From positions 2,688,734 through 2,752,733 of the forward strand of contig FN649740.1 in assembly GCA_000310025.1 (NCBI GenBank): a stretch of 64,000 nt of DNA. The letters run 5' to 3'. The translations under genes and the position numbers were made by a program. Source of the DNA: Ectocarpus siliculosus (Eukaryota > Sar > Phaeophyceae > Ectocarpales > Ectocarpaceae). A model generated the notes under the pieces. The model did not search any database. It saw only the letters and a program-made list of their open reading frames with translations, and was not told the origin of the DNA. Below, piece by piece: positions 11,401 through 43,468 of this stretch (position 1 is its first letter; each line of letters starts with the position of its first letter).

Positions 11401-14250
11401 GGCCTCCCCTTCGTCTTCGGCGAGCGTCTGGTCCTCGACAGGTGCGGCAGCAACAGCTACCGATTCCTCCGTCTGACCCTCCTGACTTCCAGCGGTTTCA
11501 GTTGCAGGAAGAGCGGTCGCCGGTGAAGTCTGGTCGGACAAGGGTGGCTCCGTCTGCTGCCCTAGCCTCTCCTCGTCCTCCGGTTTCTCGGCGGCAATCT
11601 CGGCCGCAAGCACAGCTGCCGCCGTCAGCACCGCCGTTGGCGCAGACAACAGCAGCGACGGCAACAGGCTCTCGCCCGCTTGAACTTCCGCCCCGGGAGT
11701 CCCCATGCTTTCCGGCAAGCCACCCTCGGCTGCTGCCTCTCGCTCTTCCTTCTCCCCCCCTCCGCTGCTTCCCGCCGCCCCTTGGGTTTCCCCTTTCTCG
11801 GCCGTAGAAGGTATGCCGGGTTGCTGGACCGTAGCGGCACCCTCCGCCCCTCCGTCCTCCTCCTCCTCGCCACCGCCTGTGTTTCTCTCCCCCTCTGCAG
11901 CGGTCGTCTCGCCCGCTGGAGAGGCGACCGCGCATGCAGTAGCAGGCACATCACCCGGGATGGCAGCAGCAGGTGGGACGCCGCTCGTCTTCTCCGCTTG
12001 CTCCGCCGCCGCGGGAGACGACGACACCGACACCACATCGTGCGACTGCGAAACCCGTCTCGCCTCTCCTGGCTCGTCGGCGGTAAAGGGGGCGGGACGA
12101 ATCGGACTGGAAGGCAACGAGACGGGCGGTGTGGATATGGCGGCAGAATCGGCAACGGGGATCGGGTCAACAGCAGCGGTATCAGCAGGAGCATAACCAC
12201 CACCACTACCCGGCTTCGCCGCCGTGGCTGCGTGCAACTGCTGTTCCAGTCTCTTCCGTGCCCGCTCCCTGACCCGCCGCGTCAGCAGCCGCGGTTCAGT
12301 CCGCAGGAGCGACGCGGCGGGGCCGTCTGCGACAGCGGCCGCATCGGCGGCGGCGTCCGCTGGCCCCTTCGGCGGGGAGAGGAACGCCGTCGGCTCTTGA
12401 CCTTTCTCTTCGCAGCTGTCCGCCGCCGCTGGCGTGGAGTCCTCCGGCGCTGCAGCAGCAGCAGCGGCAGGTGCACCCATCGCCGCCGCCGCGCTGCCCT
12501 CGCCGACGTCGGCATCTCTTGTTTCCTCCAAGACCGACCCAGAGGCGGCGTCGGGAGAGTCGGACGCCGACACCGCACCCCCACCCGGAGTGGTGGTGCT
12601 GGACGTCGGGGCCCCCGCGGCGACGGCGGCGGCCTCTGCGGTCGGCTTCGGCGATGACAACGACAACGATGGGGGGGTAAGCTTCGACGACGACGACAGA
12701 GCCGAGACCGGAGGCGGCGGCGGCGGCGGGCTTCGCGGGGTGCAGTGCGGCGCCTCGTCCGGCCTGGCGGCGAAGTCCGTCAGCGCCGTCGCCGGGGTCT
12801 GCTGATCGACCCACGACACGGCCTTCGTTACAGGCGGAGGGAGGGCCGAAGACGACGGGGGTTGAGCCTCGTTGGCCTGCGGCGCGCGTCACGCGGAAAC
12901 GGGAGGAACACGTCGCCGGAGAGGGGAACCGAAACGGGGGAGGTACCGCGAAAGAAGAAAAGAGGATCGATGAGTATGGCGATAGCTGGACTCGTCATGA
13001 GGGGCGGTGCAAAATCAACCCACGAAGTGTTCAGTTGTCGTGTTCGGTTGGGGCGCGATTCGTCAGCGACCGGTGAGAGAACACCGCGCACATTGAAACC
13101 AGCCTGGAATTATCTCTCCTGTAGACTGCCAGGCAGGTGCCGAACAGACGGGACGGGAGCGTTCATTGGGCGAGAGCAACGACGGCCGGATCAGACCATT
13201 GGAAAGGGAAAGGGACAAAGATTGCTTCATTCAGAGATCATGCGTCAGATCGGACCAGACAGAGAGAGACAGAGAGAGGCAGAGAGAGACAGAAGAGCAA
13301 GAGAAACAGAGAGACAGAGACAGAGAGAGCTGCTGCATAAACGGGAACATATGAGTGACACCGACGATTATCCACAACTACCACAGAAAACCGGTCCGAC
13401 CACGAACACACGACAAAGGCGGCATGATCGACCAGAGGGACACCGCAGCATCAACACCACCCCGACAAAACAGTCAACCACAACGGTCCATCAGCAGGTC
13501 GGCGAGACGAACAACGAATAGTAAAAATCCTGACAGCTTCTCACGAAAGACTTTTCTTGCACCTGGTTGCCGGCGGGAGATGCGGAAGCGGAGGTGGCGT
13601 CGTCCTCCGCCAAGCAGAGCACCTCGGTAACGACGTCGGACCGCCAGGAGTCCTTGAGCCCCGACAGCTCCGACAGGTACGCCTGCAGCCCCTCCCTCCT
13701 CTCCTCCATCTCCTCGGCGGGCATTGCCAGCGTCCCGGGGGCGTGCCACTGTTTTATTACGCGGCGCGTTTGTAGCGGGGGTTTATTTTTCACCATACTA
13801 CTGTGTACACAGGTCTTTCCCCTCGAAAAAAAAAAAAAAAACGCTATTCATCGTACACGCCGTGCTGATTGTCGGACATTCACAGCACTTCCTGCACCGA
13901 GTGTATGGGTCGGTGCTCCGGGTTTCGCAGGTGGCTAGTTGGCTTGAAAGGTTGGTTCGGAAAGGTGGCGCCGTACTGTACTGTACGCGTGGACTTTGGG
14001 CGGAACATCGGAACAACTGAAACCGTCGATGAGACACTGGCAACTGGGGGAATGGAGAGGGGGGGGGGGGCTTGACGGGCAGCGCAACTGACAAAAAACA
14101 ACGGTTCTACCGCACTGCACCTTGTGTACGAACATCAACAGCGGTGCCTGCTTGCGGGGGAAAGGAACGTCCGGCAGCGGCAGCCTCTTCTTCCATAGGC
14201 CATGCCTCATGGCGTCCAGGGTGCTGAACCGCTGTTTCACCGTCCACAGC
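8407..14250 (-). CDS. PX-domain protein with long low-complexity tail, 5' end not found
   Basis: Resolved exons (minus strand) are 14250-14121, 13748-13563, 12876-10211 and 9172-8407; all junctions are GT-AG with matching phases, and the TAG is at 8409-8407. The first resolved exon begins inside a PX (phosphoinositide-binding) domain: WTVKQRFSTLDAMRHGL corresponds to the W-x-V-x-R-[FY]-S core, followed by a proline-rich loop ending in FPRK. The second exon (MEERREGLQAYLSEL) is the C-terminal PX helix. The 2.67-kb third exon is disordered: Ala, Glu, Ser and Pro rich, with three 86-residue repeats. The last exon is Gly/Ser rich and basic, then acidic. At least 1,248 residues are encoded. PX domains usually target endosomal or other membranes through PI3P; the Arg of the QRFS motif is present. 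The exon with the N-terminal PX strands and the start codon was not found between 14.3 and 17 kb. The intron at 10210-9173 carries a long repeat element. Confidence 0.8.
9282..9990 (+). mobile_element. Interspersed element, long copy 1, in PX-gene intron
   Basis: This begins with a run of G at 9282-9294, then GTACTCATAGTCGTGCATGCC. It continues through a region present as reverse complement at 59658-60183, and ends in three tandem copies of a unit containing ACAACGTCGTTGCCAAGCGACG (about 9750-9990). It includes a GGTTACCG / CGGTAACC inverted pair around an A-run near 9685-9720. There is no transposase, so it looks non-autonomous. It lies wholly inside the PX-gene intron 10210-9173. Confidence 0.75.
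10837..11610 (-). repeat. Three 258-bp tandem repeats within the PX-gene coding exon
   Basis: A marker string near TCGACAGGTG recurs at 10919, 11177 and 11435, exactly 258 bp apart. This equals 86 codons, so the frame is kept. Each unit encodes an acidic Ala/Glu/Ser/Thr-rich segment containing TEPPLSDQTSPATALPATET. The units are nearly identical at DNA level, which implies recent expansion or gene conversion. Confidence 0.9.
13257..13331 (+). repeat. AGAGAC-type microsatellite
   Basis: Imperfect GA/AGAGAC run in the PX-gene intron between the exons at 13563 and 12876. Confidence 0.85.
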
Positions 14251-20645: not shown

Positions 20646-22653
20646 TTGTCGGTGGCGCCTGCTGCCGGTGGTTCTGTGGACGGGAGCGATTCTGTGGATT
20701 TGGAATCGGTGGCTGCGAGGGAACCAGAGCCGCAATCCTCACGCGAGTCTAGCACCATGGTCGATGCGGGCCACGGCCAGTCAATATCAGTCACACTCGT
20801 GAAGCCTCACTATATGGCAAAAGGAGGTTGACATCTTGGTGTTGGCAGTTTGTGAGTAGGTTCGCCCCGTCCATCAACGACAAGAACGTGGTGTGTTTGG
20901 TGGAGAAGAAGGATGAGACAACCTGCAACCACCTCATGAAGTGGACTCCATCAGAAAGCAACAAGCAGCGAAGGACGGGAACATCTGGCTTGTCCAAGCA
21001 CATCGAGAAAGCTCATCCCGCCGCGGCCAAAGAAAAGACGGGATGAAGGCACGCCGGCGGACAGGAAAGAGCCTATTCGAGCGGCGATCGGTGAGTAGTT
21101 CGTCATGACTTTATTTTTGTGCTGATGCCTTGCTGCTGATATTTTACCTGTACATTTTTCAGCTAGAAGCTTGTCAACGTTCAACTACTCGATCTATGAA
21201 TATTGAGTATTTGATTTCAATCTCTCACGCTCGTTAGTATTGTCTCTGGTGCTCGTGTGCAATCCCAGTGTTCCATATTTTGGTCTTGTTATGTACTTGA
21301 TATATTGGTCGCGCATGGTGACCGTTTGAACATACATAGAGTAAACATGTAAAAATATATGGAGTATGTATGGAATAAAAAGGAGACCACAACAGCATCA
21401 ACTCCCAAAAGTCGACACCTCCATCCTCTGTCCCACCAGCCCGCACCCTCCTCTGTCGCACGACGTCCCCTGTTGCGAAACATGCCTCTATGATGAGGTG
21501 GACCAGCCAGTTCAAGATGATGGATCGCCTTCTAGCCTTGAAGAAGCCGATCACCGAGTACTTCCGACAGCAACCCCAGAACTCGCGAAAGCTGACACCA
21601 AATGAGTGGACCATCACCAACGAGGTGTGCAGCCTCCTGAGCGAGAGGCCACGATTCGGATGCAAGGGGCCGAGGACACCCACATCAGCCAGGCGATGTT
21701 CATCATTCATGAGGTGATGGAGATGCTGAGGGAGGACAGCCACCCGATCCGGGCGCAGAACGCCACCGTCATGCCGCTCCCACCGGACGGCATACCCACG
21801 GACGATATGCAGGTGACGGACCTTTCCCTGGAGGCGCAGGAGGTGCTAGAGGTGCTGCTGGACGTGATGGGAGAGAAGCAGGTGGGGAAGGCTGTGTAGC
21901 AGGTGGAGCGTCTGTCCGCGTTGGTGGATCCGAGGCGGAAGTCGTTTTGACGGTGAACAACTCGAAAACGGTTCTGCGCATCTCAGGAAGAGGGCCGAAG
22001 AGGACTTGAAGGCCGCCATCGCCCAGTTCGACGCGCAGCCGTGCGAGCCTGCATCAGCGCCAGCGCCAGTGCTCAACGTGGACCCGGTGGCACCCGCACC
22101 CAAGAGGAAGAAGCTTTCGAGATTGGAGGAACGGCGCGCGGCGCGTGTGGCGGCAGCCAGCGGTGGCGGTGCGAGCGGTTCGGTCCAGGCTCAGGGTTCC
22201 GCCACCAACCGGCGCGTGCTGATCGAGCGAGAGGTATTGGTGTACTTGGCGGAGAAGGAACAGGTCGACGTGGATGACTTCAAAGTCCTGGGGTTTTGGA
22301 ATCGGCGGGGCACTGACAGCGTGTGCGCGACGACTGGCAACGTCACATCCCCGGCAGAAATGCCCTACCTAGTGTTCATCGCTCGGTTGTACCTCGGGAT
22401 CGAGGCCACCAGCTGTCAGGCCGAGCGGAACTTCTCGGCGCTCGGCCACCTGATCGGCCACCTGGGCCTCAACATTCTTTCACGGAAGGTTGAGCGCGTG
22501 ATGTTGATTCGGCTTAACAGGCACTTGGTGGACGAGGTCCGCGAATTGGACGCTGCTGTTGCGCTGGCACGAGCTAGGGCAGCCAAGAGCGCACAGAAAT
22601 CAGTGGCCTGTCAGGAGGAGAGGGCGAACAAGTCGATTGACCTTAGGTTGTAG
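20646..22653 (+). pseudogene. Decayed hAT-family transposase
   Basis: Fragments in the expected order occur in several frames. 20828-21046 resembles a BED zinc finger (Cys residues followed by TSGLSKHIEKAHP). About 21487-21640 carries the hAT block RWTSQFKMMDRLLALKKPI and an LTPNEW motif. 21650-21899 continues in another frame. 22006-22653 carries the C-terminal dimerisation region (PYLVFIARLYLGIEATSCQA, then ERNFSALGHL). Breaks are a frame change near 21050, another near 21655, an in-frame TAG at 21897-21899 and a further shift before 22006. The interval between the BED and RW blocks is too short for the catalytic core, so the element cannot be autonomous. One intron-like GTGAGT...TTTTCAG segment lies near 21091-21162. 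Confidence 0.8.
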
Positions 22654-26929: not shown

Positions 26930-26976
26930 TCAACCCCAGCTGCTGAGACTGCTCGCGGAACCAAACGCCCCTCTCC

Positions 26977-27007
<31 letters not shown>

Positions 27008-27276
27008 CTGCGGTTGCTCCCCGGCCTTTCCTCCAAGCACCCCGCTAGCGGAGTCATCCATCGACAGCCCAGAAAGCGAAGAAGCCAACCCGCCCACGAA
27101 CTCATCACCCCCCAAGGCCCCGGCACCTCCCCGCCCGCCAACACCCCACGAAGCCAGATCCAACGGAGAAGACGACGAGAAGGGCGGCAACGAGGTGGCA
27201 TCGGCCGGCGCCTGCACCGTGGACCCGTTCGACGGCCCCAAGAGAAGGGACAACCCGTCCCCCGCGATGGCGCCAC

Positions 27277-27307
<31 letters not shown>

Positions 27308-30300
27308 GTCGCCGCCCACGGAATCCAACAATGAGCTGCTTCCCCAGATAGCCTGGCCGCTAGCAGGTACACCAGCCCCTCCCACATCAATCCCGAGCGA
27401 CCCCCACAGGTTACTACCGCCGCCGCCGCCGCCGCCATCATCGGCCGCGTCAGAGGATGCGTTCTTTACGCCCCCGCCCCCGCCGCCGCCCATGCTTCCC
27501 CACGACGACCCGAACGCAACATCGGCAAGCGGAAGACCCAGACCAGCTCCTACCCCGCCGCCCTTGCCCGGGGAGGGTCTCAACCCGGGGCTGCTGCCCG
27601 ATGCCGTCACGGGAGGTCGCGGAGGCGTTTGTCCCGCCCTTGCCGCTGCCGTCGGCGTTCCCGCCCCCGCCGACCGCGCGGCGGCGGCGCCCGGACGGCT
27701 TACCGGGGTACCGCCGCCGGTGCTTGTGGCGGGCTTGGCCGGGGAGATGTTCGTCGGCACGAACACGCGCGCGGCCGCGGAGAGCTCGCCGTTCTGCATC
27801 GCGAGAGATATGTCGTCCGCGTCTCCCGGCGAGCCCGGAGAGGAGGGGGTTAAGGAAGGCGTGCGGGGGGGCGCCGCATGCTGAGATACCGCTGCCGGTG
27901 CCGGCGCTGGTGCCGGTGGTGCCGGTGCTGGCGAAGCCGAGGCTGCCGCCGGTGCTGGTGCAGGGGCCGCCTGCGGGGAAGAAGACGTGGACGCTGTGGT
28001 TGTTTCTTGTCTCTGTCGCTGTTGCTGCTGCTGCTGCTGCTGCCGCCGCCTCTGGTGCTGCTGCTGCTGCTGCTGTGCAAGTCCGCCGCGAGATAGCACC
28101 GGGCTATTCCTACCTTCCTGTGCGTTCGGACGAGGGCCGCCCCCACCATTACCGGCACTCCACGGATCTCCCCACGGAGCCGGGGCTCCCGCTGGCGGGT
28201 CCAGGGTGCCCCCGTGATTTTGCTGGTGCTGCTGGTGCTGCTGGTGTTGTCGAGGATGTTGACGCAACCCTGGGACTGGCCCCGGGCCGCCGCCAGCTGC
28301 CGCGGGTACGCTCGGCGCGTTGTTGCTCCAGCCGCTGGCGATAGCGGCGGCACGTTGGCGTGCAGCCGCCCACTCTGCTTGCTGACCAGGACCTTGGGGC
28401 TGTTTTCGCCGACGCGCACGTGTGGGGCGGGCGGGCGGGCGAGCGAAGGAGAGTTTGAGCGCTGGTTAGTTGAGGCCTGGTACAGCTGCGGCGGCGGGTG
28501 TTTCAGCAAGGCGGCACGGGGCGTGACCATACCCCTCGCCATAACGGCCACGACTCATTTCCCTGGGACATAAACGTCACGGAGCACTGCCGTACAGCCA
28601 GCGGTATCGCAGAAGGCAAAGAGGCAGATGTCCTCCGAAGGGGAACACCATGTACGATTTGGTCACGACCCCCCCCCGGGCATTCAAAAGAGGGAAGGGA
28701 ATGACTCGCCAACTCGAATTGAGCAAGGGCGAACGCAAACGAATTGAACACCCAAATCTCCGAAGCGTATAAACCGCACCACAAATGCCCATGCAAGAAC
28801 CGGCAATTACTTTGACGGCTGTTACAAGCCATGCTCCGACCCTATGCGATACGCACCACCCGGCCGGTCGCTTGAGGCTACACACAGCAGACAGGCCGAG
28901 CTTGGACCCCACTACTGACCCCTTGCACGGCCGGTGTTGCTTTCGAAAACGTATCTCCCAAGACTAACCAGTGGCATTTGTGCTGGTCAGCTGGTTTTGG
29001 CGCTCAAGTTTTCAAAACAAAACACAAGCACACGACGACAGAAAGATAAGCCACCCTGTCGGCACGCCCTCTTCACCTGCTGCGATGGCCCCATCGTGGG
29101 CGAAGCGCCGTACCCGCGGGGCGACTGCTGTGGCGGAGCACCGCGCGGTGGCGGTGGCGGCGGTGGACCACCACCACGTGGAGGCTGCTGGAGAGGGTTG
29201 TTATTGTTATGGTTCGGTCCTCCTGGCGGCCCTTGCCCGTAACCCCTGGGAAAGGGCATGGGCTGCGGTCCCCGGTGCAGCATGTGGCCGCCCAGGTGAG
29301 ACGGCGGCACGTTCATCGGCATCCCTAGCGGCGTTCCCGGTGGTGCAGCAGGGCGCGGACCTGCGTGGCATTGACGAAGGAGGGGGGGGGGGGGGGGGGG
29401 GGGGGCTTTATTTTTTTGGCAAATTAAAACCCCAAAAAAAACCCGGGAACTTAATTTTGGGTTTCCCTTTTAACCACCATTTGGGTTTTCTTTTTTGCCA
29501 GGAAACCAACCCCCCCCTTTTTCCCCCAAAAAAGGGGCCCCCCGGGAAAACCCAAAATTCAAACAAAGGGGGGGGTTTTTTTTTCCGGGGCCCCCCCCCT
29601 TTTGGGGGGGGCCCCGGGGGGGTTTTTTTTCTCCTTAAATTTTTTTAACCGGGGGGGAAAAATTTTGGATCCGGGGGGGGACCCTTTTGGCCCCCCCCCC
29701 CCCCCCCGGGAAAATTCTCCCCCTTTTCCCCCCTGTCCCGGGCATTTTAAAAAACCCCCCCCCCCCCCCCCCCCCGCCCCCCTTTTTAAATCCCCCCTTT
29801 TTTTCAAAAAGCCCCCCNNNNNNNNNNNNNNNNNNNNNNNNNNNNNNNNNNNNNNNNNNNNNNNNNNNNNNNNNNNNNNNNNNNNNNNNNNNNNNNNNNN
29901 NNNNNNNNNNNNNNNNNGGGGGGGGGGGGGGGGGGGGGGCGCTTACATGCATGCGCAACTCAAGCACCACAAACAAGCCTGCAACTCAGTATTGGGCTCT
30001 CCATTCAACCAACCATGTGCGTTCCTCTTTGCGCTAGGAACCAAGCCAGCCACTATGCACTCGACACGAGGTCACGCCTGCGAAACCCTAGCATCGACAC
30101 GACGTGGCGAGTTTCATTGCCAGGTCACGCACGCTCTACGGCAGGCACGCAGGCAGGCTCTTTTCACTCCTGAATCTCTCTGACCGTGAGGCGAAAATCT
30201 TGGACTCGGTGTGGGACCCATATGGCCGCGTCCACCCCCCGCAGGGAATGCTCCAGCCCTTGCCCCGCCTGCACCGGCCATCTTACCAACCCCGCTCCCC

Positions 30301-30489
30301 GCCCCCGCCGCGCCGCCGTTTGCAACTCCAGTCCTGTTTCCATACGGCACCGGTCCCGCCTGATTGCTGTTGAACTGCTGGTGTTGCTGCTGGTGTTGCT
30401 GCTGCGGCTGCTGCTGCTGCGGCTGCCCCTCATGCCTAGCGACATCCCCTCCTGTTCCGCGTCTACTGGGAGCCCCCGCCTGCTGCTGC

Positions 30490-30542
<53 letters not shown>

Positions 30543-33500
30543 AGGCGAGGCGTTACCCTTGCCAGTCGCCACATCACGGCGACCGCCCGCCCCCGCCCCG
30601 ACATTAACCCCTACGGGAGAGTGGCCCCGAGCGCCCGGGTTCGCAATCCCTCCCCCTCCCCCTCGCTGGTTAGCCCCCTGTGGCAAGCCCTGCGGCGTCA
30701 GCTTCGCGTTGGCAAGCCCCCCCCTGCCAGGCGGCGGCGGGTTCGGCGAGCGAGGCACTACCTTGTTGCTCGGTACCAGACCCCCCACCCCTCCGAGGAG
30801 CGGGAACGCGCTCGGCAGCGGCGGCGGCCCCCCCGCCTGCTGCATGGGTTTGATGGGCGGCGTCTGCTGCACCTGGCGAGCTGCCATCGCCGCCACCGCC
30901 GCGGCCCTGACGATGGGGAAACAAGGGGGCGGCGGGGGGACGAGCGCGAGAGAAGTGGTGCAAGAATCTCTGACAAATGGAAGGTGCTACGCGCATACGC
31001 GCATACGCTTGTGACGGCTGTAGGATGAAGAGGAAGCAGTCACAAAAAACAAGTCACCGAAGGTACCGATCAGAGACCGCTTTTTTCCTCGCCAACAAGA
31101 CAGGCGCCAGGGGACGAGCAGCGGGTCGCAAGTTGCGGGGCTTCATGTACTGCTGGACACACGTTGTAGTACGACATTGATGAAGGCGGCATGTGCGTAG
31201 ATAAACGCGATTTCTGAAAACCAGAGGCTGGAGGACACGTTCAGCACACACTCTCCTCCACAACCCCCCTTGTCGAGGGGCCCTCATGAGGATGCCCCGG
31301 TCTCGGGCGAGCTATGTAGAACAACAATATTATTGCACAGTCTGTTAGCACTTCCTTGTCATCTAAAAACCAACTTTCAAAAACAAACTAACACACCAGC
31401 ACCAGCTCCGTCCGCGCGACCCCGTCCAATCGATTTTGGTGGTCTCGGAGACAAAAAATCGTACTGGACCTGACGACCCTCCCGCTGAGGCTGACGTGAT
31501 TTCGGTGGCCAGCAGGGTGGCACGGTTGATGCTACAACAGGATGCACATGGCACCCGTATGCAACACAACTCATGTAGAGTAACTCAATCCACGCGGACC
31601 AAACGCGCCACTTCTATACAGAAGTGAGAGCGCTCCACAAATGAGGGCTGCTCCATAGCATATACCGTACCAAATCAATGGCAAGGAAAGGTGACACTAC
31701 CGGCTGCTCGGAAGCGTTTGCCTCCACTCAGCCCATTCGTCCCACCTTCGACTGCTGTCTGCTGCGCTAATTAACATTGGATCTTCCGCGCGCAAAAGCA
31801 TCGTATTACCTCTGGGATTCCATGAGTTTGCGCTTCTCGTCCTTGGCATCCTCGATCTCCTTCTCCCTCGCCGTCTCCGCCGCTTTCTTCTCCTGAAACG
31901 AGCAACAGAGGAGACGACGTCTGAGACAGCAGCCTCCACGAGCAACATCGAAAAACAATCAAACACACGCCCACAATGGACAATGTTCCCTACGACATCG
32001 CCATTATCAAACAGGAAAAAAAAAAAAAAACATACGCGGAAGCCGGGCGGGAATGAAAGCAACCCCAGCAACAAACCTGATAGATGAAGACAGCAAAAAA
32101 AAATTGGACGCAAAATGGTCAGAATACGGACAGCCCCAAGCAGCAACCTGATGAAAACAGCAGCAGTTCGACGCGAAACAATCACGCAGTAAAGCGACAA
32201 ACAAGGGCTCTTGGGCCCATAAAAAAAACACACCAGCCCCCCGGTCCTCGTCGGAACCTAAACCAAGAACCAAGACACCCCCCCCCATGAGCGGCCTGGC
32301 CCAGCCCCACCTCTTCTTCCGCCCGCCTCAGCGGCAGCGACGCGTTCCACGCCCGGTTTATGCGCCGCAGCTCGAGGTTGTGCCGCCTCTTCTCCTCCGC
32401 CTTCGCGGCCGCTGCAGCAACGGTCGCCGGACCCCCGCCTACCCCAACCCCCCCGCCACCGCCGCCATCCTTTCCCGACCCTGGGACCACCCCCGCCCCC
32501 CCCCACCCCGCGCCCCCGGGGCCCCCGACGCCGCCGGACACTGCGATGCCAGCCAACGCGCCGTGGCCGTGGTTGCGGAGGGCGGAAGAGATTACCCCAG
32601 AGTTGCCCTTGCCGGCGTCGACCTTGGTGGCCTTGGCCTTGGAAGCGGGGCCCTTGCGCCGGGCGTTTGCTGCGGACGCCTTGCTGCTTCCATCAAGATG
32701 AGGAGGCGTGTGTGTGGAACATGGCAGGGGCAAGGGGAGGGGGGTTACAGCGGCAAGCCTCTAATTTTCTCCTATACTAAATAGTTTCGGCTCTACAATA
32801 TATCGGCACGTGAGGTTGAACGTTGATCGGTTTTGTTGATTCAAACAATCGAAGAGTGGGCTGCTGGATTGACCACTCCGCGCCCCGCACTGGAGAAAGA
32901 GAGAGAAGAGAGAGCACTTGCTCGTCCTGCGTACCACCAGCTTGTTGGGCCTCAACACGCCGATTCCTTGCCACGGAGGAAGGGGGGGGGGGGTGTCGTG
33001 TAGCACTTGAAAGCGAGATAAAACACGTTGAATCTACCACACGCTATAGTAGATACATCCCTAGCGAGCAACACACGGCGGCGCTGAAGCGAAGGATGAA
33101 ACGCGCGCTGACCTGGCTGCGGCGCTGGCCTGTTCCGCCGGGGTGACCCCGCCGTCGGGGTGCTCGAACAGCCACGACAAAAGCGCGTTCAGGTCGAAGC
33201 CCACGCACGACGTGCCTCTGTGGACGTGCTCCTCCTGGAAACCCATTGCTATCAACTGAGGGGACGAAAAATGGGGTGCGGGAGAGGAAGGGAAGTCGGG
33301 GGTGGGGGGGGGGGGTCTGCGGGTACCGCGGAGGTGGAAGGGGCGACGTGCGCCAAACACAGAAAGAAGCAAGATACGGCATGAAATAACTCGAGAGGGT
33401 ACACACGTGATGAATTCGTGCCGCGTTTACGGACGAAAACTGGCATCCCGCAGGTACTTCTGCGGCCATTGCCTGACAGCAACAAGCCCAGAAAGACCAA

Positions 33501-36500
33501 GCTTCGACGGCCTGCGCCAGCATGACTGCGCCGTTACATCGCCCAAACCGGCACCATTTGCACCAGGTACGTCGTGGACGTGTACGCGAGTCCAACGGTG
33601 CCTCGAAAGGTGGAAACAGCAGTACAGCAGTGTATCGACCTGGGTAACCAATCGTGTACATTGAAGAAGGCACCTAAGCGGCGTCGTGATCAAATGCCAG
33701 TCGCACTCGGAGAGCCACGGAAGGGTTTCTCTGGTATACACCCCAACCAACTCTATCGCGTAGGCCGTACAGTGCAGAGCAGGACGGTAAAACTCTTGAC
33801 GAGGAATGTTCCTCCACGCGTTTCGGCAAACACCAAACAGATCATACAAAACCAAACACACATGAATTTGGGCCCCAAGCACACCAAGGGCATATATAAC
33901 CCTGAACGCGCCAGATAACACTCTACCTGGGCGAGGAGATCATCTCTCGACATCGAAGACTCGTGCGCGCTTTCCGAAACCGCGGGCGCGGCGGGAGAGG
34001 CGTTCCCCGCTCTAGCCGCCGCCGCCGCCGCCGCACGCGGACGCGATGAAGACGCCGCCGCCACCACCGCCACCGGCGCGCCATCCCCCGTATCCTTCCC
34101 CGTAGGAGCGCCTTCCGCGCCTCCATTGGCAGCCAAGCCTCTGTCGGCGACGCTGTCCTCGTCGCCTGCTGCTGCGCGTGTGTGTTGAAATTGTTATTCT
34201 CGTTGTGTCAGTTGTTGGCGGTACATCTGTGCAAGTTGCGGTTGCTGGTCGCTACCAAAAGCAACAAAACAATCGCTGTAGTGGTTGTCGTCAACGTGTG
34301 GTGGTATGTGCGGTCCCGAGTGAAAATGCGGAGCGCACGACCGATCAAACCCCAAACGGAAAAAGACAAGCGCGAACAACAATCTGCCAGTCCTTCCGCC
34401 AATCGGTCGCGAACCATCGGTTTTCATGTACATGCATCACACGCCTGACCTCGACTTCATCCGCCGCCTGCGCTCTCTCGTGTAGACCCCCTGCCCATTG
34501 TGGCGCCAGGTTCACATGAACTCAAAACTCCTACCCCCGTACATGTAGCAAAACCCCGGTGCCTCGGCCCGGGCGAAGTGAAGCGAGAAGAAACCGCAAA
34601 CTCTCCCAGCCATCATCCATACACGGCGCTACAATACGGCCGAGTGGCAATCGCGTGGACACGTCTCCGCCGCCCCCGCCCTCCCAAATCAACCCCGGCC
34701 AAACCTGTCTTGTTGTTGCTGTTCTTCTTCTTCTTGGCCTTCTTGCCCTTCTTGGTCTTGCCCTCCTCTGCCTTTCCCTGATCCTCCTTGCGGCCCTTCC
34801 TCTCCTCCTCCTGCCTCTCCTCGCGCTCCAGCCTCTCCTGTTTACGTGTCGGGGTCATGGCGAACACGGAAGTTACCACCGACAAACAGCAATCCAAACA
34901 TGACAACAGCAACAATCCGAACACGACAACAATAACAATAACACCAACAATGACGACGACAGCAGCACCAGCAGCACCAGAAGTCATGCGGTCAGTCAAA
35001 ACTATCACAACTGTGAACGCAACTCGAAGCCAAGTAACCTCGCCGCACAGGCCCCGGATAATCATGCCAGCCCCCTGGTCCATACAGGGGGCCATCGGTA
35101 CTTGAAAGGTGGGACAAAGGGTGCTGCTGCCTGGCACCAGGCACCCAACATCGGCCTAGCTAGCCCCCGCCAGGAAAAATGACCTGCACACAGCAGTCAT
35201 CAAAGCACTCCCGTGTATCCGCGCAAGACCGTGAATGCTACTTCACCCCTAGCCCGATCGTTCCACAGCCCCCCGCCAATAAAACACTTTCGTTTTGATG
35301 GGCATCTGTTCAACTCCACCCTTCCCGGAGCCGGCTGGCCCTGTTCCTCAGCTGTCGACAAAATCGGGCATGGGGAAGCGACCGCACCTCTGCAGTGCGA
35401 GGCCGACCGACGGCACTTGCGGCCGCTTCTTTTCGACCACCGCCGGCGAAACAAACCTACTGCTACCGCCCGGCAGCACCTCTACCAAAAACGCCGCGCT
35501 CTGCCATGAAAACGAGGCAGCAGCTCGACCTTGAGAAAAACCTTCACGAAGGACAACGGCGGCCGGCACAACACCACACCAACAACACGGCCATGGCCGC
35601 GGCAGCACACAGCGACTCACGGCAACGACGCCCTACACACCACATCGTCGCACACACTACCCCGCGTTGCCCAAACAACAATCCACACTATTATAGCACA
35701 CCCCCCGCCACATCGCAGTTTGGGACCCGCGCGTTTGCCGCACCTGCTTATCCTTGAGTTGGCGCTGCTTCCGGGAGAGCAGCTCTCTCTCCCTGGCTTC
35801 CTTCTTCTTCTCCTTCTGCACTTCGGACCTTTTCTTCGCCAGCTGTTCGTTTCATTTTCAATCCGAGGCGTCCGTCCGGTCGTGTCCCCACCGACGAACC
35901 CGATCGACGCAGACAAGACGGCCATCGAGTTCCGTTGTTGTCAGAGGATCCGCGCCGTTGGGTTTCTTGGCAAACAATGTGTACGCGAGTGGGTGCTGAC
36001 GCTTCGTTCGTTTGCAAAAAAAAAAACTGTTTCTCAAGAAGCGAAAAACGGGCGAAATCGCCTCGCCTCAACAGAACGAGGAGGAACGACAACTAGAACA
36101 AGTAACGTTTTCTCACGAAGCAAAACTCGCCCCGCACGCACGCACGCACACACACACAAACGCAACACAAACCCCCTACAAATTCATTTGCTAACCCAGA
36201 CTATCTGTCGATGGTTTAAAAATTGGCATGCGGACCCTCCGGGTCCATTTTATTTGAGCGTGCCTCTTTCAGGGAAATTAGCCTTTGACCACGGGAATCG
36301 CTCCGTCAAGTTTGTTACCAGTACGGACAGATGAAGGTACTAGGTAGAGAGATCGGAACGGTTTTTAATGTGAAGAAATTGCAATCTATCACGGACTCTT
36401 TATCTGTTGGAAGAGATGCATATGTTGTGTTGATGCTGAGAAAAGTATCCCCTTCGACTGCTGTGGTACTACCTCGAATTGGTAGTCTTTCTTGATTGCA

Positions 36501-39500
36501 CGCGTACTTTCTGAAAAAAAACTTATTTCGCAAAACACGCACCACACCTCCCGCCAACTACTCTTTGTCCAACAGCCACCTCAGCACGATAAAAAAAAAA
36601 CTCTCTCACCTTCGCCTCTCGTTCTTTCCGCTCTCGTTGCTCCTTCGCCCGCTCCACCGCCTGCGTGGCAGCACTCAGCTGCCTCGCGACCTCCTGCAGC
36701 CCCTTCTTGCGGGGCCCCGCTCCCTCCTTCGACAGCAGGGCCCTCGCCAGCTGCAGCGCGGTGCCGCCATCCCCTCCGCCCGCCCCGCCACCCCCGCCTG
36801 CGCCGTTGGACGAGCTGGGTTCGATGCCGTCGAGAACGGCGCCGCGGACGCTGACGCTCGCGCCCGCGGTGAGGAGCGTGGACACGCCCACCGGGCTTCC
36901 TTCTGCCGCGGCGTAGTGCAGCGGCGTCCAGCCCTTGAGGAGGCACCTCTCGTCCAACAGAATCTGATCGCGTCGCTCTGTGGGGGGAAAAGTGTTCCAA
37001 TGATGGGCGCGAGAGAGCGAGACAAAGAGAAGCGCACACACACACACAAACAAGAACAGAGCTCCGAGAAGTAAGTAGACGTCGAGTGCCGCAAAGAAAA
37101 ACTGTAGGCCAGTCTACAGCTCCCGCAGAGACCCCCTCGCGCTACAAATGGTTTTTAGTGTCACCTCGGACCGGGGGGGTCTGCAGCTCAGAGAGGCAAG
37201 ACGACGGTTGGCTAGGAACAATTAGACAACAGCTGTCCTGGAAGTCTTCATGTTCGGAACTTTGCACCTGTAATAACCACTTACGACGATGTTTGCAACA
37301 CCGCAGTAACGTGCCAAGCCGACCAAAACAAATCGCCGCCGACAACAGTTTCAAAAAGGCTGTCGTGGAGTGGGTGCCCACAAAAAAAAGCTGTCCCTCC
37401 CCGGGCGCGCTGCAGCGGCAGCGGTACGTCGCACTCGTCAAGACCTCATGCGCGCACTAGGGTCAATACAACGCACATCCTATACTACCTTGCCTCTCTC
37501 AAAGAGCTCATGGGTGTAATCGGGGGGGGGGGGGGGGCAAGACAATACCCACCTTGCGACTTCTGCCTCTCCTCCAGCAAGAGCGCAAGGTAAGGAAGGT
37601 CTAGGGCCTCCGCGACCCTGTGAAGGACCGTCAGCCCCACCGAGTCGACCCACCCTGCGTCCACGGCAGGATCAGTGCTGGCCAAGATCATCTGCAGGGG
37701 CCAAACAGACAGACGGAGGGGGGGGTGATACCGGAATCTGGCAAAGACCACTACAGCAAAGGACAAAAACCCTTCGATCGCCGGCTGTCGCGAGCGCAAG
37801 CCCAAAAACACAACTCCCATGTCCCGTGGGGACGTGGAACACACAGGAAGAAGACCAGCAATATTTCAGGCGGGAGGGGGGGAAAGGCGACGCGTACATC
37901 AACACCATGACCACAACAAACTACGACACACATGCAAACACCCACACCACACCACACCACCAACCGAAACTACAACGCGCACCGCCGCGATGCTGAGGCG
38001 ATCGATTGCCAGCTCCTTGAGCTGAGGAGCGTTGTCCGGGCTGCCAGCGAAGTCTGTCACGCACGAGTGAAGCAGCGACGCTCCCGACGACCCGTTCTCT
38101 CGCTCTCGCTCCGTGCACCGGATAAGCCCGGTCCCGAGCATCAGTCGCACCTTGACCGAAACCAAACGGGACCAGGGGTGTCAAAAATGTGTGCGGTTCG
38201 GGGGGTGGGGTCGTCCAAGCTTAAGGCTTCGCGTGCGTGATGGGTTTATCCATACTTCAAGGCTTTTCGTGCGCGATGGGTTCTAACTCTCCTTTAATCT
38301 GGTTCCGAACTCCACGCAAAGAGACGAAACCCTGCGCTTGGGTGCGAAAACAAAAAAATACTCGTTCAGCAGAGAAGCCGTTTCGATCCCGCGGCGATCG
38401 ACACGACAAATGTTGCTGAAAATTCAACTTCCGGCTGCTCGAGAACAGCTCGCGGTACATTCTTACACGAGGACCTCGAAACACTCGCCACCGGTTCCGC
38501 AGCATGAAAAACGAAGGCCAGCTACACAAGAACAGCAGTAAGTAGCTGCTGCTGCTGCTGCTGCTCCCGCTGCCGCGGCCGTCTCACCTCCTCCACAAAG
38601 CCCGCCCTACACGCCGTGAAGAGTCCCACTCTTCTCTCCTCCTCGGCCTTCCTCTTCAATCGAACAACCTCCTTCCGCTTGTCGGCCACGCTAGTGTCCT
38701 CGTCCTTCTTCCCCTGGTCATAGCAGCCAATCGCGAAACACAACAGTAGCAACGTTGGAATTTTTCCAGCGCCGAGGGCGGATTCCCACAATGAAAGGAC
38801 ACAAAAAAGTCCTTCACAACAAAGACTGCGAAACGAAGATAAACAAAAAAATGACATCAAAGAGTTGAGACACAAAAACTTCACATCAAAGAGCATGAAA
38901 CCTTGCACGCACCGTAACAGACGCAAACGTCCTATTCTATATAGTAGCAACAAATCGCCACAAACCCAACCAGCAAGGGCAACCAGGTGCAGCCACTGCT
39001 ATTGACAGTGTTTCAATCGAGGAAACAAAGAAGTAGCATGGAGCGTCGAAATGCCAAACTTTAGGAACCGCACAACACCCAAACGACCAAGACGCGCTGG
39101 TACTGGTTATATGGAAACACCAATGGAACAAGGTCAGATTTCAGAAAACAGCGAGAACGGAAACGGGAATGACGAGAGTGCGTGCCCAGCACATGCAAGG
39201 ACTCATCACCACAGCTGCTGCCGATCGCTCAGCTTCACAAAAGAACCTCCATCACTCAAGCATACATACGATCGTCTCTGCTCATACTCCTTCCCAGACA
39301 ATCAAAGCCCAATCGTCCCAACGCGTACCTACGATCGTCTCTGTTCATAGTCCTCCTCAGATAACCATAGCCCAATCGTCCCAACGCGTACATGCGATCT
39401 CGTCTCTGCTCATCCTCTTCCCCATATAACCATAGCCCTACATCATCGTCCCAAACCGTGTGCGCAACTAAACATGTTGAGCTCCCTCTACCGCCTGACG

Positions 39501-39824
39501 CTGCCCTCGTTCAATTAGCGAGACTCCCCGGCGTACCCCAATCGCGCACATATCCTCGTCTGCGCCCACAAAACTCTCGGTCCTCCTGGAAGCATGCACG
39601 TGGCCAACATCACACACCTCATCCTGCTGCGCATCCCTCTGGTCCGCCGCCTCCTTAGCAGCAGACGCCCTCTGCTGCTGCTTCTTCTCCCTCTGCCGCC
39701 GCTTCTTATCTTGCCGCTTTTTCAGGGCTCGCGCTTGCCGTAACGCCTGCGTTGTGCCCCGCCGCCCCCGTCCCCGCCGCCCATACGGTACCGTACCGAC
39801 CGATCGAAAATAGATAAATCAGAT

Positions 39825-39862
<38 letters not shown>

Positions 39863-40837
39863 CAGACAGACAGAGACAGACAGACAGAATGAGAGAGGGC
39901 ATCGGCAACGGAGAGCAGCTGCTTTTACAACAACAGCGCGGCGTGAACGAAAAAACTCACACAAACACGAACGATTTCCAGCGAAAAAGATCGAATCCTG
40001 CGAGACCGTCCGCGGCAGTGAGTAACACCAGCAGCACTTTTTTATTACAAAGGAAATTATCCATCCACACACTCATGTCTTTCGGTTTGGAGGAGCGACG
40101 CAAACACGCGCCCATGAGTGGTGTGAGGGTACTATTGCTGTCATGGAGATTTCGCTTCATCCCTACCTCCACCCCCACCCAGGAGGAAGGAACCACTGGC
40201 CATCGGTCCTGTGGGAACAATGCTCCGTCCTCCCGAGGACGCGTGGTCAATGGTCTAACCGCTAAAAGGCATGCAAGACATGAGTGCCCCCCCCCCCCTA
40301 CCTCATCTTCGAGCTGGACCGCCTCGCTTGTACCCCCGCTTGCGCCGCCTAGCCCCGCCGCCCGCTGCTGCTCAACCTCCTCCTGAGTAAAATACATAAC
40401 AGCAAGCAGTCAACTTATCAGAGCATGCGCGAGAAAACACGCGTTTCCAAAGGGCAAGCGACCCACAGCAGCGGATCACGCTTTCCGCGACAAAAGGTGC
40501 TCTCAATGCCTATCGTAAGTCGCGCGCGTTGCAAGAATACAAACCAGACCTACCTGCCGTACATTGTATGTCGAAAAAACTAATCACCCACAGACAATAT
40601 TTTCGATCACGCGGTCAAGAAGAAATACCTTGAGGTTCATGTGAAAGTAGTGGCGGACCATCGGCTCCCACAGGCACTCTCCGCCCGCCGCGGCGGGGCC
40701 CCCGGCCCCCGCGGCCCCGGCCTTGAACGCCTCCGCGGCGGCGGCGGCTGCGGCCACGGCAGCCGCGGACGCCGACGACGCCGACGACGACCCGGCCGCT
40801 CCGGCAGCCTCGCCACCACCGTCACCGCGCTGGGCGC

Positions 40838-40877
<40 letters not shown>

Positions 40878-43468
40878 TTGTTGCTGCTGCTGCCCGTGGG
40901 TGTCCGGCTCTGGTTCGCAGTCTTTCATGGTTCATGATTTGGGGTATTTTGCGCCCGCAAAGAAGAGAGAGGGAGGGAAAAGGGCATGAGCGTTTCGCGG
41001 GACAAGAAGGGTCGCGTTCAGGAGAGCAAGGGTCGGGAGGTGAGGCGATATGGGACATACCGCCCGGTCCTTAAATCGATGTTGTGGGTCAATCCTCGCT
41101 CTCATCAGCGGGGAAAAGCGCGCGAGAGAGGAGGCTCCAGGACCCCCGAAAGTCCCACAGCAAGGAGGTTTTAACCGTCTGGCACTAAGCCGAAGACAGA
41201 ATGGAGAGGACGATTATTCCACCATCGGCAGGACACCCTCATGGGGTCCAAGATCATGGCCTTGGAAGCAGTTTCTGTTTTTCAACTGCGCTGAGATTGT
41301 GGTTTGCGCGGTCGATGCAGTTACCAACAAGAAACAGACACACACACATACACACGAAAGACGTTCACGTCGTTTTCGTTTTTCCGGCCGCCAGCGCTGA
41401 CCTTCATCCAGGTCAAACTCTTCCTCGTCGTGGTCGTAGTCTTCCTCTCGGCCCTCCCCATCTTCCTCCTCGCTGCTCCAGGTCTGCCATGCATACGGTC
41501 CACGACGAAAGGCATCGTACCATCAGAGCAACAGCAGCGGTTCGTCGTGAGAATTTACGGGGCTTCCTCTACCTCGCTTCTTCAAGGAGTACCATACAGT
41601 AGCGGCGTTGCGAAGCAAACAACGGCTAAGCGTAGAGAGCGCGTGCGTGAGTATATTTTGTAATTTGTCGATCAACATACGTATAATACAGGAAGGCGAG
41701 CACTCCAGAGGCCACGTTGGGGGGGATTCCCCGGCCCTGTCGCCGTTACATAATCATCTGTCACCACGCAACCGTCACGCAGCCCGTCCACATTCGCGCA
41801 CCTCCTCTTGTGGCCTCTCGCCGAACATCATGCTGAACGCCACGCTAGCGCTGGGCATATCTGCCATGTCTGGCGGCATCCCTTAACAGCGAGACAACGA
41901 GAGAGAAAACGCGCGATCGCAAGGAAGAGAGGTGGTCGCCATGAAAAAAGACACAGGTCTAATAGCGAGTACGGTAGCGGGGAAAAACGAAAAGAGACAT
42001 GCGCGAACCGGCCCGTGGCCGTGGTGACAGCAAGGCTGCCGTTCCTAACTTGGAGGCCAAAAAACTAAAACGTTGTTTCATCACAGTGGTGCCGACCCGT
42101 ATTTTCATGAAACTCTTATCGAACACCACGTGGAAAACCCGAACAGCGTTCGTTTCGAGCCGAGCCCCGCCCGCATCTTCCTACGGGTGGGATGCTGGCC
42201 CTACGCTTGTTGTGGCTTTCCCAAGCTCAGCAACAACTCACGCTGCTGACGTGTTTATGCTCTCGAGCCCAACTCAACCAACCAAACCGAAAAACCAGTG
42301 CTGTATCTACATGTTGCCGTTCTCTTCCGCGATGCGCTTCACAAGCTGATGCACAACGAATGGAACACCGGCAGTTATTAGTCGCTCGCAAAGCTGTTTC
42401 GGCCTGCCGTACTCGCTCGCTCGCTCGCCCGCGCTCTCACCTGGGGGCATCTGCACGTGCCCTCCCTTGCATCCGGGGCCGCAGCCGTTCGGCATGCTGG
42501 GGATGTCGCTGCCGAACATTCCCACTAGCTCCATGAACATGGACATGAAGGCTCGCATCTCGTCAACGTCGTCATAGAAACGCTCGCTCCTGCTTCCAAC
42601 ACAAACAAGGGTACAGCACGACGTGTTTGTTCATCGCACATCGACGGCCGGAGACAAAAAAGCGGTACAATCTATCTATACATACCCAAACAGGAAACAC
42701 ACGTTAACGCATACACCACAAGTGCAACCTGGATATATATTCATAGAACAAAAACACATTTCACTTCAAGCTCGTTCGAACACACTCGCTCACACCACAA
42801 GTGCACGCAAGAATAATATATTCATAGAACAAAAACACATTTCACTTCAAGCTCGTTCGAACACACTCGCTCCTGCACGTGGGTGCACGGAACAGCCGCA
42901 CTCGACGCCCTGACGCCTGCCTGGATCGCATGTCAAGCTCTGGGAAATCGAACCCGGTCGCGCGAAAAGCTTGCGCGTGATGCACTGCTGTACTCATGCA
43001 GGAACGAGCTGTGTACGCCGCTGCTCACCCGTCGCCGTCATGATCCCGGCCGGATTCCCCAGATACGAGCCGCGTGTACGCCACGGACACCTTCCATCAC
43101 GGCACACACAGCACGCGACATTGCCAAGGTTAGTTTTCGGTTTGGTTCATGCGCCAAAGTGCAGGCGACCGTATTGTTGGGTAGGAGTTGGATTGGTATC
43201 GTGGGCTTCCTCAAGAGCAGGCGTCGAGCAGATGTGCACCGAGGGCGAGATACCCGCAGTGAGAGAAAATGCGTCTTTAGTACCTAAATACCTACCGCAG
43301 CTCGCCCCCACCCCCTCCCCTCACCTCCTGGAAGCGTTCTTTAGCGTCGGCCTCCTTGCACTTGTCCGGGTGCCATCTCAACGCCAGCCGCCGGTAGGCC
43401 GCCTTGAGCGTCTCCGGGTCGGCGTCGACGGCCACCCCGAGCACCGCCGCGGCGGCTTCCAGCTTCAT
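26930..43468 (-). CDS. J-domain / ankyrin / UBA / PAM2 protein, 22 exons
   Basis: Exons (minus): 43468-43325, 43090-43029, 42589-42441, 41881-41802, 41483-41402, 40921-40629, 40382-40302, 39746-39618, 38713-38588, 38150-37983, 37691-37553, 36977-36610, 35842-35744, 35500-35388, 34832-34705, 34165-33927, 33255-33113, 32686-32311, 31892-31810, 30906-30185, 29360-29077, 28399-26930. All junctions are GT-AG, phases agree throughout, and the sum (5,478 nt) is divisible by three, giving 1,825 residues. Residues 1-69 are a J domain with HPD at 33-35, which recruits and stimulates Hsp70. An acidic stretch (about 146-172) and polyQ follow. About 373-545 holds ankyrin repeats ([12 protein letters not shown] is the clearest). 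About 793-836 is a UBA domain (LIAMGF...[10 protein letters not shown]), which binds ubiquitin. Coiled-coil segments surround it. About 1002-1825 is Gln/Gly/Pro-rich with several polyQ runs and a PAM2 motif at 1541-1553. The protein is probably cytosolic: no signal peptide or membrane segment is seen. The start is the first ATG in the J exon; an upstream exon is possible. Confidence 0.85.
27749..27787 (-). other. PAM2 motif (poly(A)-binding protein interaction)
   Basis: The minus-strand frame reads [13 protein letters not shown]. It matches the PAM2 pattern L-x-x-x-A-x-x-F-x-P with exact spacing; the usual Asn after Leu is Ser here. PAM2 motifs bind the MLLE domain of poly(A)-binding protein. 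It sits in a disordered Ala/Pro/Gly region, as is usual for this motif. Confidence 0.75.
29384..29817. other. Corrupted sequence left of the assembly gap
   Basis: Homopolymer-inflated sequence that tracks the clean sequence at about 29918-30350 base for base in order and spacing, with mixed bases collapsed into runs (for example GGGTTTCCCTTTTAACCACC against GGCTCTCCATTCAACCAACC). It is a poor-quality read end beyond a G-run, not genomic sequence. Any frames in it should be ignored. Confidence 0.9.
29818..29917. other. Assembly gap, 100 N
   Basis: Exactly 100 N, the conventional size for a gap of unknown length. It is flanked by a G-run on the right (29918-29939), and the same G-run precedes the corrupted duplicate on the left (29383-29405). 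It falls inside the intron between exons 30906-30185 and 29360-29077 of the J-domain gene. Confidence 0.97.
30480..30540 (-). repeat. Coding CAG repeat (polyQ)
   Basis: The run of CTG on the + strand is a CAG run encoding about 20 Gln, with one Lys, in the exon 30906-30185 of the J-domain gene. Shorter polyQ runs occur in the exons at 40921-40629 (near 40842-40890) and 28399-26930 (near 26980-27010 and 28020-28075). Confidence 0.9.
39262..39440 (+). repeat. Tandem repeat, about 58-60 bp unit, 3 copies, intronic
   Basis: The core CGATCGTCTCTGYTCATA and CCCAATCGTCCCAACGCGTA recurs three times, the last unit degenerate. It lies in the J-domain gene intron between exons 39746-39618 and 38713-38588. 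Confidence 0.8.
39826..39890 (+). repeat. (GA)n / GACA microsatellite, intronic
   Basis: GA run followed by GACAGACA units in the intron between exons 40382-40302 and 39746-39618 of the J-domain gene. Confidence 0.9.
40197..40298 (+). mobile_element. C-tract repeat family, short copy at a 5' splice site
   Basis: It contains GACGCGTGGTCAATGGTCTAACC and ends in GAGTGC plus a 12-C run at 40287-40298. Related copies are at 9282, 56652, 59549 and 60075. Here the C-run ends two bases from the GT donor (complement of 40300-40301) of exon 40382-40302, so the intron begins GTA followed by a long G-run. Confidence 0.8.
42700..42885 (+). repeat. Direct duplication of about 92 bp, intronic
   Basis: A 54-bp stretch containing AACAAAAACACATTTCACTTC is perfectly repeated (about 42738-42791 and 42828-42881), with ACACCACAAGTGCA preceding each. 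It lies in the intron between exons 43090-43029 and 42589-42441 of the J-domain gene. Confidence 0.9.

Follow-up and report, generated by a model that had tools for sequence, protein, structure and literature searches.

Proteins with a J domain recruit Hsp70, an activity established for the family, and in some of them it is joined to ubiquitin binding: DNAJB2/HSJ1 couples its J domain to ubiquitin through ubiquitin-interacting motifs, and yeast Swa2/auxilin combines a UBA domain, TPR and clathrin-binding parts with a C-terminal J domain. Other proteins hold further pieces of such a combination. UBR5 is a HECT ligase that carries an MLLE domain and is not known to have a PAM2 motif; MKRN1 is an RNA-binding E3 ligase not known to have a J domain; and ANKZF1/Vms1 consists of ankyrin repeats, a coiled coil and a VLRF1 release-factor-like domain. 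To our knowledge, there is no settled account of how Hsp70 reaches messenger ribonucleoproteins (mRNPs) and stress granules. MKRN1 has been reported to bind PABPC1 and to link ubiquitin to the quality control of poly(A) translation (PMC6805484). The plant proteins CID5-CID7 (class C) carry PAM2 and a ubiquitin-binding CUE domain, CID7 also SMR, and class C is described as identified only in land plants in the account given in PMC4574140; ataxin-2 has been reported in Ectocarpus (PMC12898128). Here we describe a minus-strand gene (43468-26930) in a 64,000-nucleotide (nt) stretch of contig 15 of the Ectocarpus siliculosus genome (189 Mb, 492 contigs), referred to as the window. Its predicted product would run from a J domain through ankyrin repeats and a UBA-like domain to a PAM2-like motif. 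We give an even chance to the reading that this is one gene, encoding a class C (type III) J-domain co-chaperone that brings Hsp70, and perhaps ubiquitylated clients, to mRNPs bound by poly(A)-binding protein (PABP).

The coding chain was rebuilt by script from exon limits set by hand, giving 21 exons on the minus strand with a total of 5367 nt and 1788 amino acids (aa). The exons are supported by frame, splice sites and codon bias, and lie at 43468-43325, 43090-43029, 42589-42441, 41881-41802, 41483-41402, 40921-40629 and 40382-40302 (exons 1-7); 39746-39618, 38713-38588, 38150-37983, 37691-37553, 36977-36610, 35842-35744 and 34837-34705 (exons 8-14); and 34165-33927, 33255-33113, 32683-32311, 31892-31810, 30906-30185, 29360-29077 and 28399-26930 (exons 15-21). 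The frame opens with an ATG at 43468, upstream of which lies an in-frame stop, and contains no internal stops, its sole stop being the terminal TGA that ends at 26930. All 20 introns have GT-AG borders. A previous sequence-only reading had proposed a chain of 22 exons; its ends, frame and phase agreement were retained and its exon count was corrected to 21.

The G+C content of the chain is 0.76 at third codon positions, compared with 0.54 for its introns. In 20 of the 21 exons, leave-one-out codon scoring ranked the chosen frame above both alternatives on the same strand; exon 5 was a near tie (0.207 vs 0.220), and for exon 2 the reverse strand scored marginally above the chosen frame (0.069 vs 0.061). 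When the codon model was trained on exons 1-17 only, exons 18, 19 and 21 passed. Every donor (20/20) fell within the best 9% of GT sites in splice-site scoring. The median exon and intron lengths (143 and 547 nt) agree with the medians published for Ectocarpus (exon, 143 nt; intron, 531 nt; intergenic, 2529 nt; mean 3' untranslated region (UTR), 845 bp; PMC6337836). The gene looks real.

Several observations weigh against the model in detail. Exon 20 has no support from codon usage trained on exons 1-17, and the best intronic open stretch (at least 25 codons; intron 3) reaches a total codon score of 5.9, above exons 2, 3, 5 and 11 and far below the long exons. For ten of the 20 acceptors, over 25% of the AGs in the gene score higher, and for five of these (introns 1, 3, 5, 9 and 12) over 35% do, so single exon boundaries may be off. 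The model as a whole is a prediction from genomic sequence. As separate observations on the introns, tandem repeats of 81 bp (2 copies, 42713-42872) and 63 bp (2.8 copies, 39263-39438) lie in introns 2 and 8, respectively.

Two domains of the product were recognized above Pfam cut-offs. The J domain (aa 9-60, exons 1-2, 43055-43444) matched Pfam DnaJ at 54.1 bits against a cut-off of 27.8 (E-value 1.7e-14) and PDB entry 2dmx (DNAJB8) at an E-value of 2.8e-10, and has its HPD at aa 33-35. Neither a zinc finger nor a C-terminal DnaJ domain, as found in class A/B J proteins, was matched by Pfam at E-values up to 1, the limit that also applies to the absences of Lsm, LsmAD, MLLE, HECT and VLRF1 and to the 824 aa after exon 18 reported below. 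Ankyrin repeats occupy approximately aa 383-530 (exons 10-12, 36841-38150): Pfam Ank_2 matched aa 448-528 with 33.6 bits against a cut-off of 27.3 (E-value 6e-8; 4.9e-10 as a fragment), Ank reached 25.3 bits (cut-off 21.1), and Ank_3, at 21.7 bits, was slightly below its cut-off of 22.3. The repeats before aa 448 were assigned by eye. PDB ankyrins gave an E-value of 3.7e-14, but this value adds up the repeats, and no single stretch did better than an i-E-value of 0.27. Between these two domains, a Met-rich acidic segment follows the J domain (aa 71-172, 42589-41402) and had no Pfam match. After the repeats, a Lys/Arg/Glu-rich region from late exon 12 through exon 14 (34705-36708) may, judged by sequence and composition, form a long charged helix or coiled coil.

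The UBA-like domain is less certain. It spans approximately aa 757-811, at the end of exon 15 and in exon 16 (33113-33950), and has the MGF loop. Its best PDB matches are the UBAs of deubiquitinases (a USP14-like protease, USP13 and USP5), with E-values of 0.0046-0.087. Its Pfam scores count against it, UBA_7 remaining below its cut-off of 27 bits both within the 964-aa piece (20.3 bits) and for a 54-aa fragment (26.4 bits), and the Pfam UBA model giving 16.0 bits as a fragment against a cut-off of 22.4. The sequence-only reading had thus named the J domain with its HPD, the ankyrin repeats and the order of the domains correctly, and its UBA domain is borderline, UBA-like by the PDB matches but just short of the Pfam threshold. 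The 824 aa after exon 18 had no Pfam match.

A second, partial copy of the gene in the same genome bears on part of the exon structure. The stretch C29:370375-377471 (L027, L028 and L029) repeats, in the same order, the end of exon 12 and exons 13-17, with frame-breaking indels in four of the six exons (12, 14, 15 and 17), which marks it as a decayed copy and not a working paralogue. Exons of the copy are 77% identical to those of the gene (887 aligned bases) and introns 65% (1407 bases), with three short intron pieces as alike as the exons. This better conservation of exons supports the limits of exons 12-17; exons 18-21 lie outside the copy. Synonymous and non-synonymous change, compared over four gap-free pieces of the copy, did not differ significantly (p 0.16).

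Searches of the same genome with single parts of the protein returned few other places. The segment after the J domain matched this gene alone (3 matches), the ankyrin part matched this gene and one weak place on C9 (E-value 0.0058), the UBA-like domain matched one further place, the decayed copy on C29, and the PAM2 region matched itself and one place at an E-value of 5.7. Against viral contigs, aa 1-145 matched 12 stretches, one of which encodes a relative whose match is short and lies in the J domain (residues 17-50, 44%); no relatives were encoded among the 11 stretches for the ankyrin part or the 40 for the UBA part, and a megablast search of phages gave no match.

Whether all 21 exons belong to one gene is decided at the junction of exons 18 and 19 (31810/30906), whose continuity, predicted from sequence features, is the weakest point of the model. 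What speaks against it is that reading through past exon 18 (AGG TAA) stops immediately: the exon ends in AG and is followed by G and the stop TAA (31808-31806), so that a gene could end within 31806-31810. A J-Ank-UBA gene followed by a separate PAM2/polyglutamine (polyQ) gene is therefore conceivable, the first encoding a 964-aa protein that ends at TAA 31808-31806 and the second a Gln-rich protein with the PAM2-like motif that starts at the first ATG of exon 19 (30885-30887, read from 30887) or in an exon further upstream that has escaped notice. That early ATG has G at -3 and +4, a good context, and introns and short intergenic regions are described as easily mistaken for each other in Ectocarpus (PMC6337836). 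The immediate stop is nevertheless weak evidence for two genes, since among the three phase-2 exon ends of the gene exon 2 is also followed by a stop at once, although exon 16 is not. Intron 18, at 903 nt, is no longer than intron 8 (904 nt) or intron 13 (906 nt), and both of its splice sites score well, the donor being outscored by 2.4% of the 1140 GT sites and the acceptor by 5.9% of the 1012 AG sites in the gene. With a mean 3' UTR of 845 bp in Ectocarpus (PMC6337836), a 3' UTR, a promoter and a 5' UTR could scarcely be accommodated in the approximately 0.9 kb that would separate two genes here. The codon bias of exons 18, 19 and 21 also matches that of exons 1-17. On balance we consider two adjacent genes unlikely, though a case to be taken seriously, and spacing, splice scores and codon bias lead us to regard a single gene spanning exons 1-21 as probable.

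If a single gene is accepted, its link to PABP depends on a 10-residue PAM2-like motif in exon 21 (aa 1505-1514, 27755-27784), recognized by pattern and profile statistics. The PAM2 consensus is given as LNxxAxEFxP, with roles described for its Leu, Asn, Ala and Phe (PMC7356810). The motif keeps the Leu, Ala, Phe and Pro of this consensus. Several facts would fit a fortuitous match within a tail of low complexity, which would reduce the protein to a co-chaperone of J-Ank-UBA type serving ubiquitylated clients with no tie to PABP: the motif has Ser in place of the conserved Asn and Val in place of Glu, two deviations from the consensus in PMC7356810; the Pfam PAM2 model reports no match at the motif in the protein, and the motif was absent from the seven matches of a genome-wide PAM2 profile search; and it was spotted post hoc, out of the many short motifs that could have been noticed. 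A looser pattern was found in 0.375% of shuffled tails and in two other open-frame peptides.

Further statistics speak for the motif. It is rare, as L[NS]..A..F.P occurred in 0.125% of 20,000 shuffled tails and in 0.26% of 5000 whole-protein shuffles. Open frames of at least 60 aa from the window and five other stretches of the same genome, 124,976 residues in total, contain this pattern once, at the motif itself, and lack the canonical LN..A..F.P. A ten-position profile was then built from six of the seven PAM2-like matches of the genome (L013 was dropped because its match ends before FxP); only three of the seven pass the Pfam cut-off, and some of the six profile members may be false. On this profile the motif scored 17.7 bits, within the range of the six members when each was left out in turn (10.1-23.2). 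None of 5000 shuffled tails reached this score, which was also the highest among the 124,976 open-frame residues. Ser at the Asn position is not peculiar to the motif, as it is likewise found in the PAM2-like match L012, itself below the Pfam cut-off. A chance match therefore seems improbable to us, and the rare motif, although picked after the fact, is a plausible candidate PABP-docking site. The PAM2 motif of the sequence-only reading is kept as a rare PAM2-like motif that fits the genome's own profile, without recognition by Pfam and without the canonical Asn and Glu.

A potential MLLE partner for the motif exists in the same genome. A profile search placed MLLE at one place only, split over two exons and with the core KITG / MLLEMDNGELLHLLESP. 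MLLE scored above the cut-off in both exon frames, and RRM_1 matches were found in four of six upstream open frames that were scanned; together these matches mark the gene as a PABP.

The tail that holds the motif is also rich in Gln. Within the exons, eight or more consecutive CAA/CAG codons are found at 40839-40892 (18 codons, exon 6), 30495-30542 (16 codons, exon 19), 28019-28042 (8 codons, exon 21) and 26978-27010 (11 codons, exon 21, near the C terminus), all on the minus strand; these are four of the seven such runs in the window, the other three lying outside the exons of the gene. The PABP of the genome carries a 13-Gln run of its own. The runs noted previously are thus present, but as polyQ occurs outside the exons and in the PABP too it is unspecific, which counts against giving it any weight here, and its use as a pointer to ataxin-2 was dropped.

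A last alternative, that poor sequence around an assembly gap has joined unrelated exons and that exons 20-21 belong elsewhere, draws on the 100-N gap in intron 19 (near 29818-29917), whose flanks, to about 29400 and 29960, consist of extended C/G homopolymers and low-complexity sequence suggestive of poor assembly quality, and on the weak codon bias of exon 20; we regard it as very improbable, as the reading phase carries on across the gap, exon 21 fits the codon bias of the gene and the whole gene lies on a single 5.77-Mb contig. A further exon could hide in the gap, though the phase holds across it.

Outside the gene, the window contains an open frame at 21868-22653 (plus strand) that matches the C-terminal dimerization region of hAT transposases (E-value 3.1e-5), and a 931-codon open frame at 10093-12888 (minus strand) with no Pfam match at an E-value of 0.01.

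For the single-gene co-chaperone, the following mode of action is proposed. The J domain would stimulate Hsp70, a partner or client may be held by the ankyrin repeats and the charged regions, and the UBA-like domain, if the borderline assignment is correct, could bind ubiquitin itself or proteins modified with it. The tail, long and rich in Gln, Gly and Pro, is probably disordered and, as motif statistics suggest, its PAM2-like motif might dock on the MLLE domain of PABP. The protein would then bring both Hsp70 activity and a means of sensing ubiquitin to polyadenylated mRNPs, the sites at which stress granules and nascent or misfolded proteins are dealt with. The link between chaperone action, ubiquitin and mRNPs that had been drawn from the sequence is thus plausible, while depending on an unproven junction, a UBA below cut-off and a non-canonical PAM2. 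More tentatively, at somewhat less than an even chance, we suggest a lineage-specific co-chaperone in which one chain switches Hsp70, reads ubiquitin and anchors to PABP, as a built-in adaptor for mRNP protein quality control, a task that in better-studied eukaryotes is thought to be split among several proteins. If this is true, a natural adaptor consisting of one chain, whose motif for docking on PABP is defined, would make the recruitment of Hsp70 to mRNPs testable by one point mutation, and it would show the extent to which J-domain proteins have diversified beyond animals, plants and fungi.

The combination of domains appears to be new, its parts being known. DnaJ, ankyrin, UBA domain and PAM2 were not found together in a literature search that had most subscription papers outside its scope; for related themes, no such architecture was among the matches listed, and it may be annotated in eukaryotic protein databases. 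UBR5 is similar in its UBA (UBA-like here) and in the theme of the PABP pathway, with MLLE and HECT as features of its own, and neither of these was matched by Pfam in this protein, nor was the VLRF1 domain of ANKZF1/Vms1. Swa2/auxilin likewise has a UBA (UBA-like here) and a J domain in one protein; here the J domain is N-terminal, and ankyrin and PAM2-like parts are added. DNAJB2/HSJ1 is a functional parallel, in that a J domain is combined with ubiquitin binding, as is proposed here. Ataxin-2, as described in PMC12898128, is similar in its polyQ and PAM2 (PAM2-like here), and its Lsm and LsmAD domains had no Pfam match in this protein (an LsmAD search of the genome also gave no match, but no control came up, so that absence is not shown). 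The earlier comparisons with ataxin-2 and UBR5 hold for single parts, and fail on Lsm/LsmAD, HECT and MLLE in the Pfam scan. MKRN1 parallels the proposed PABP binding and the ubiquitin theme (PMC6805484). The plant CID class C proteins, as described in PMC4574140, join PAM2 to a ubiquitin-binding domain, as is proposed here, but have CUE instead of UBA and neither J nor ankyrin; CUE had no Pfam match in this protein. With class C J-domain proteins it has in common a J domain with HPD and accessory domains, whereas the joint presence of ankyrin, UBA-like and PAM2-like parts sets the Ectocarpus protein apart.

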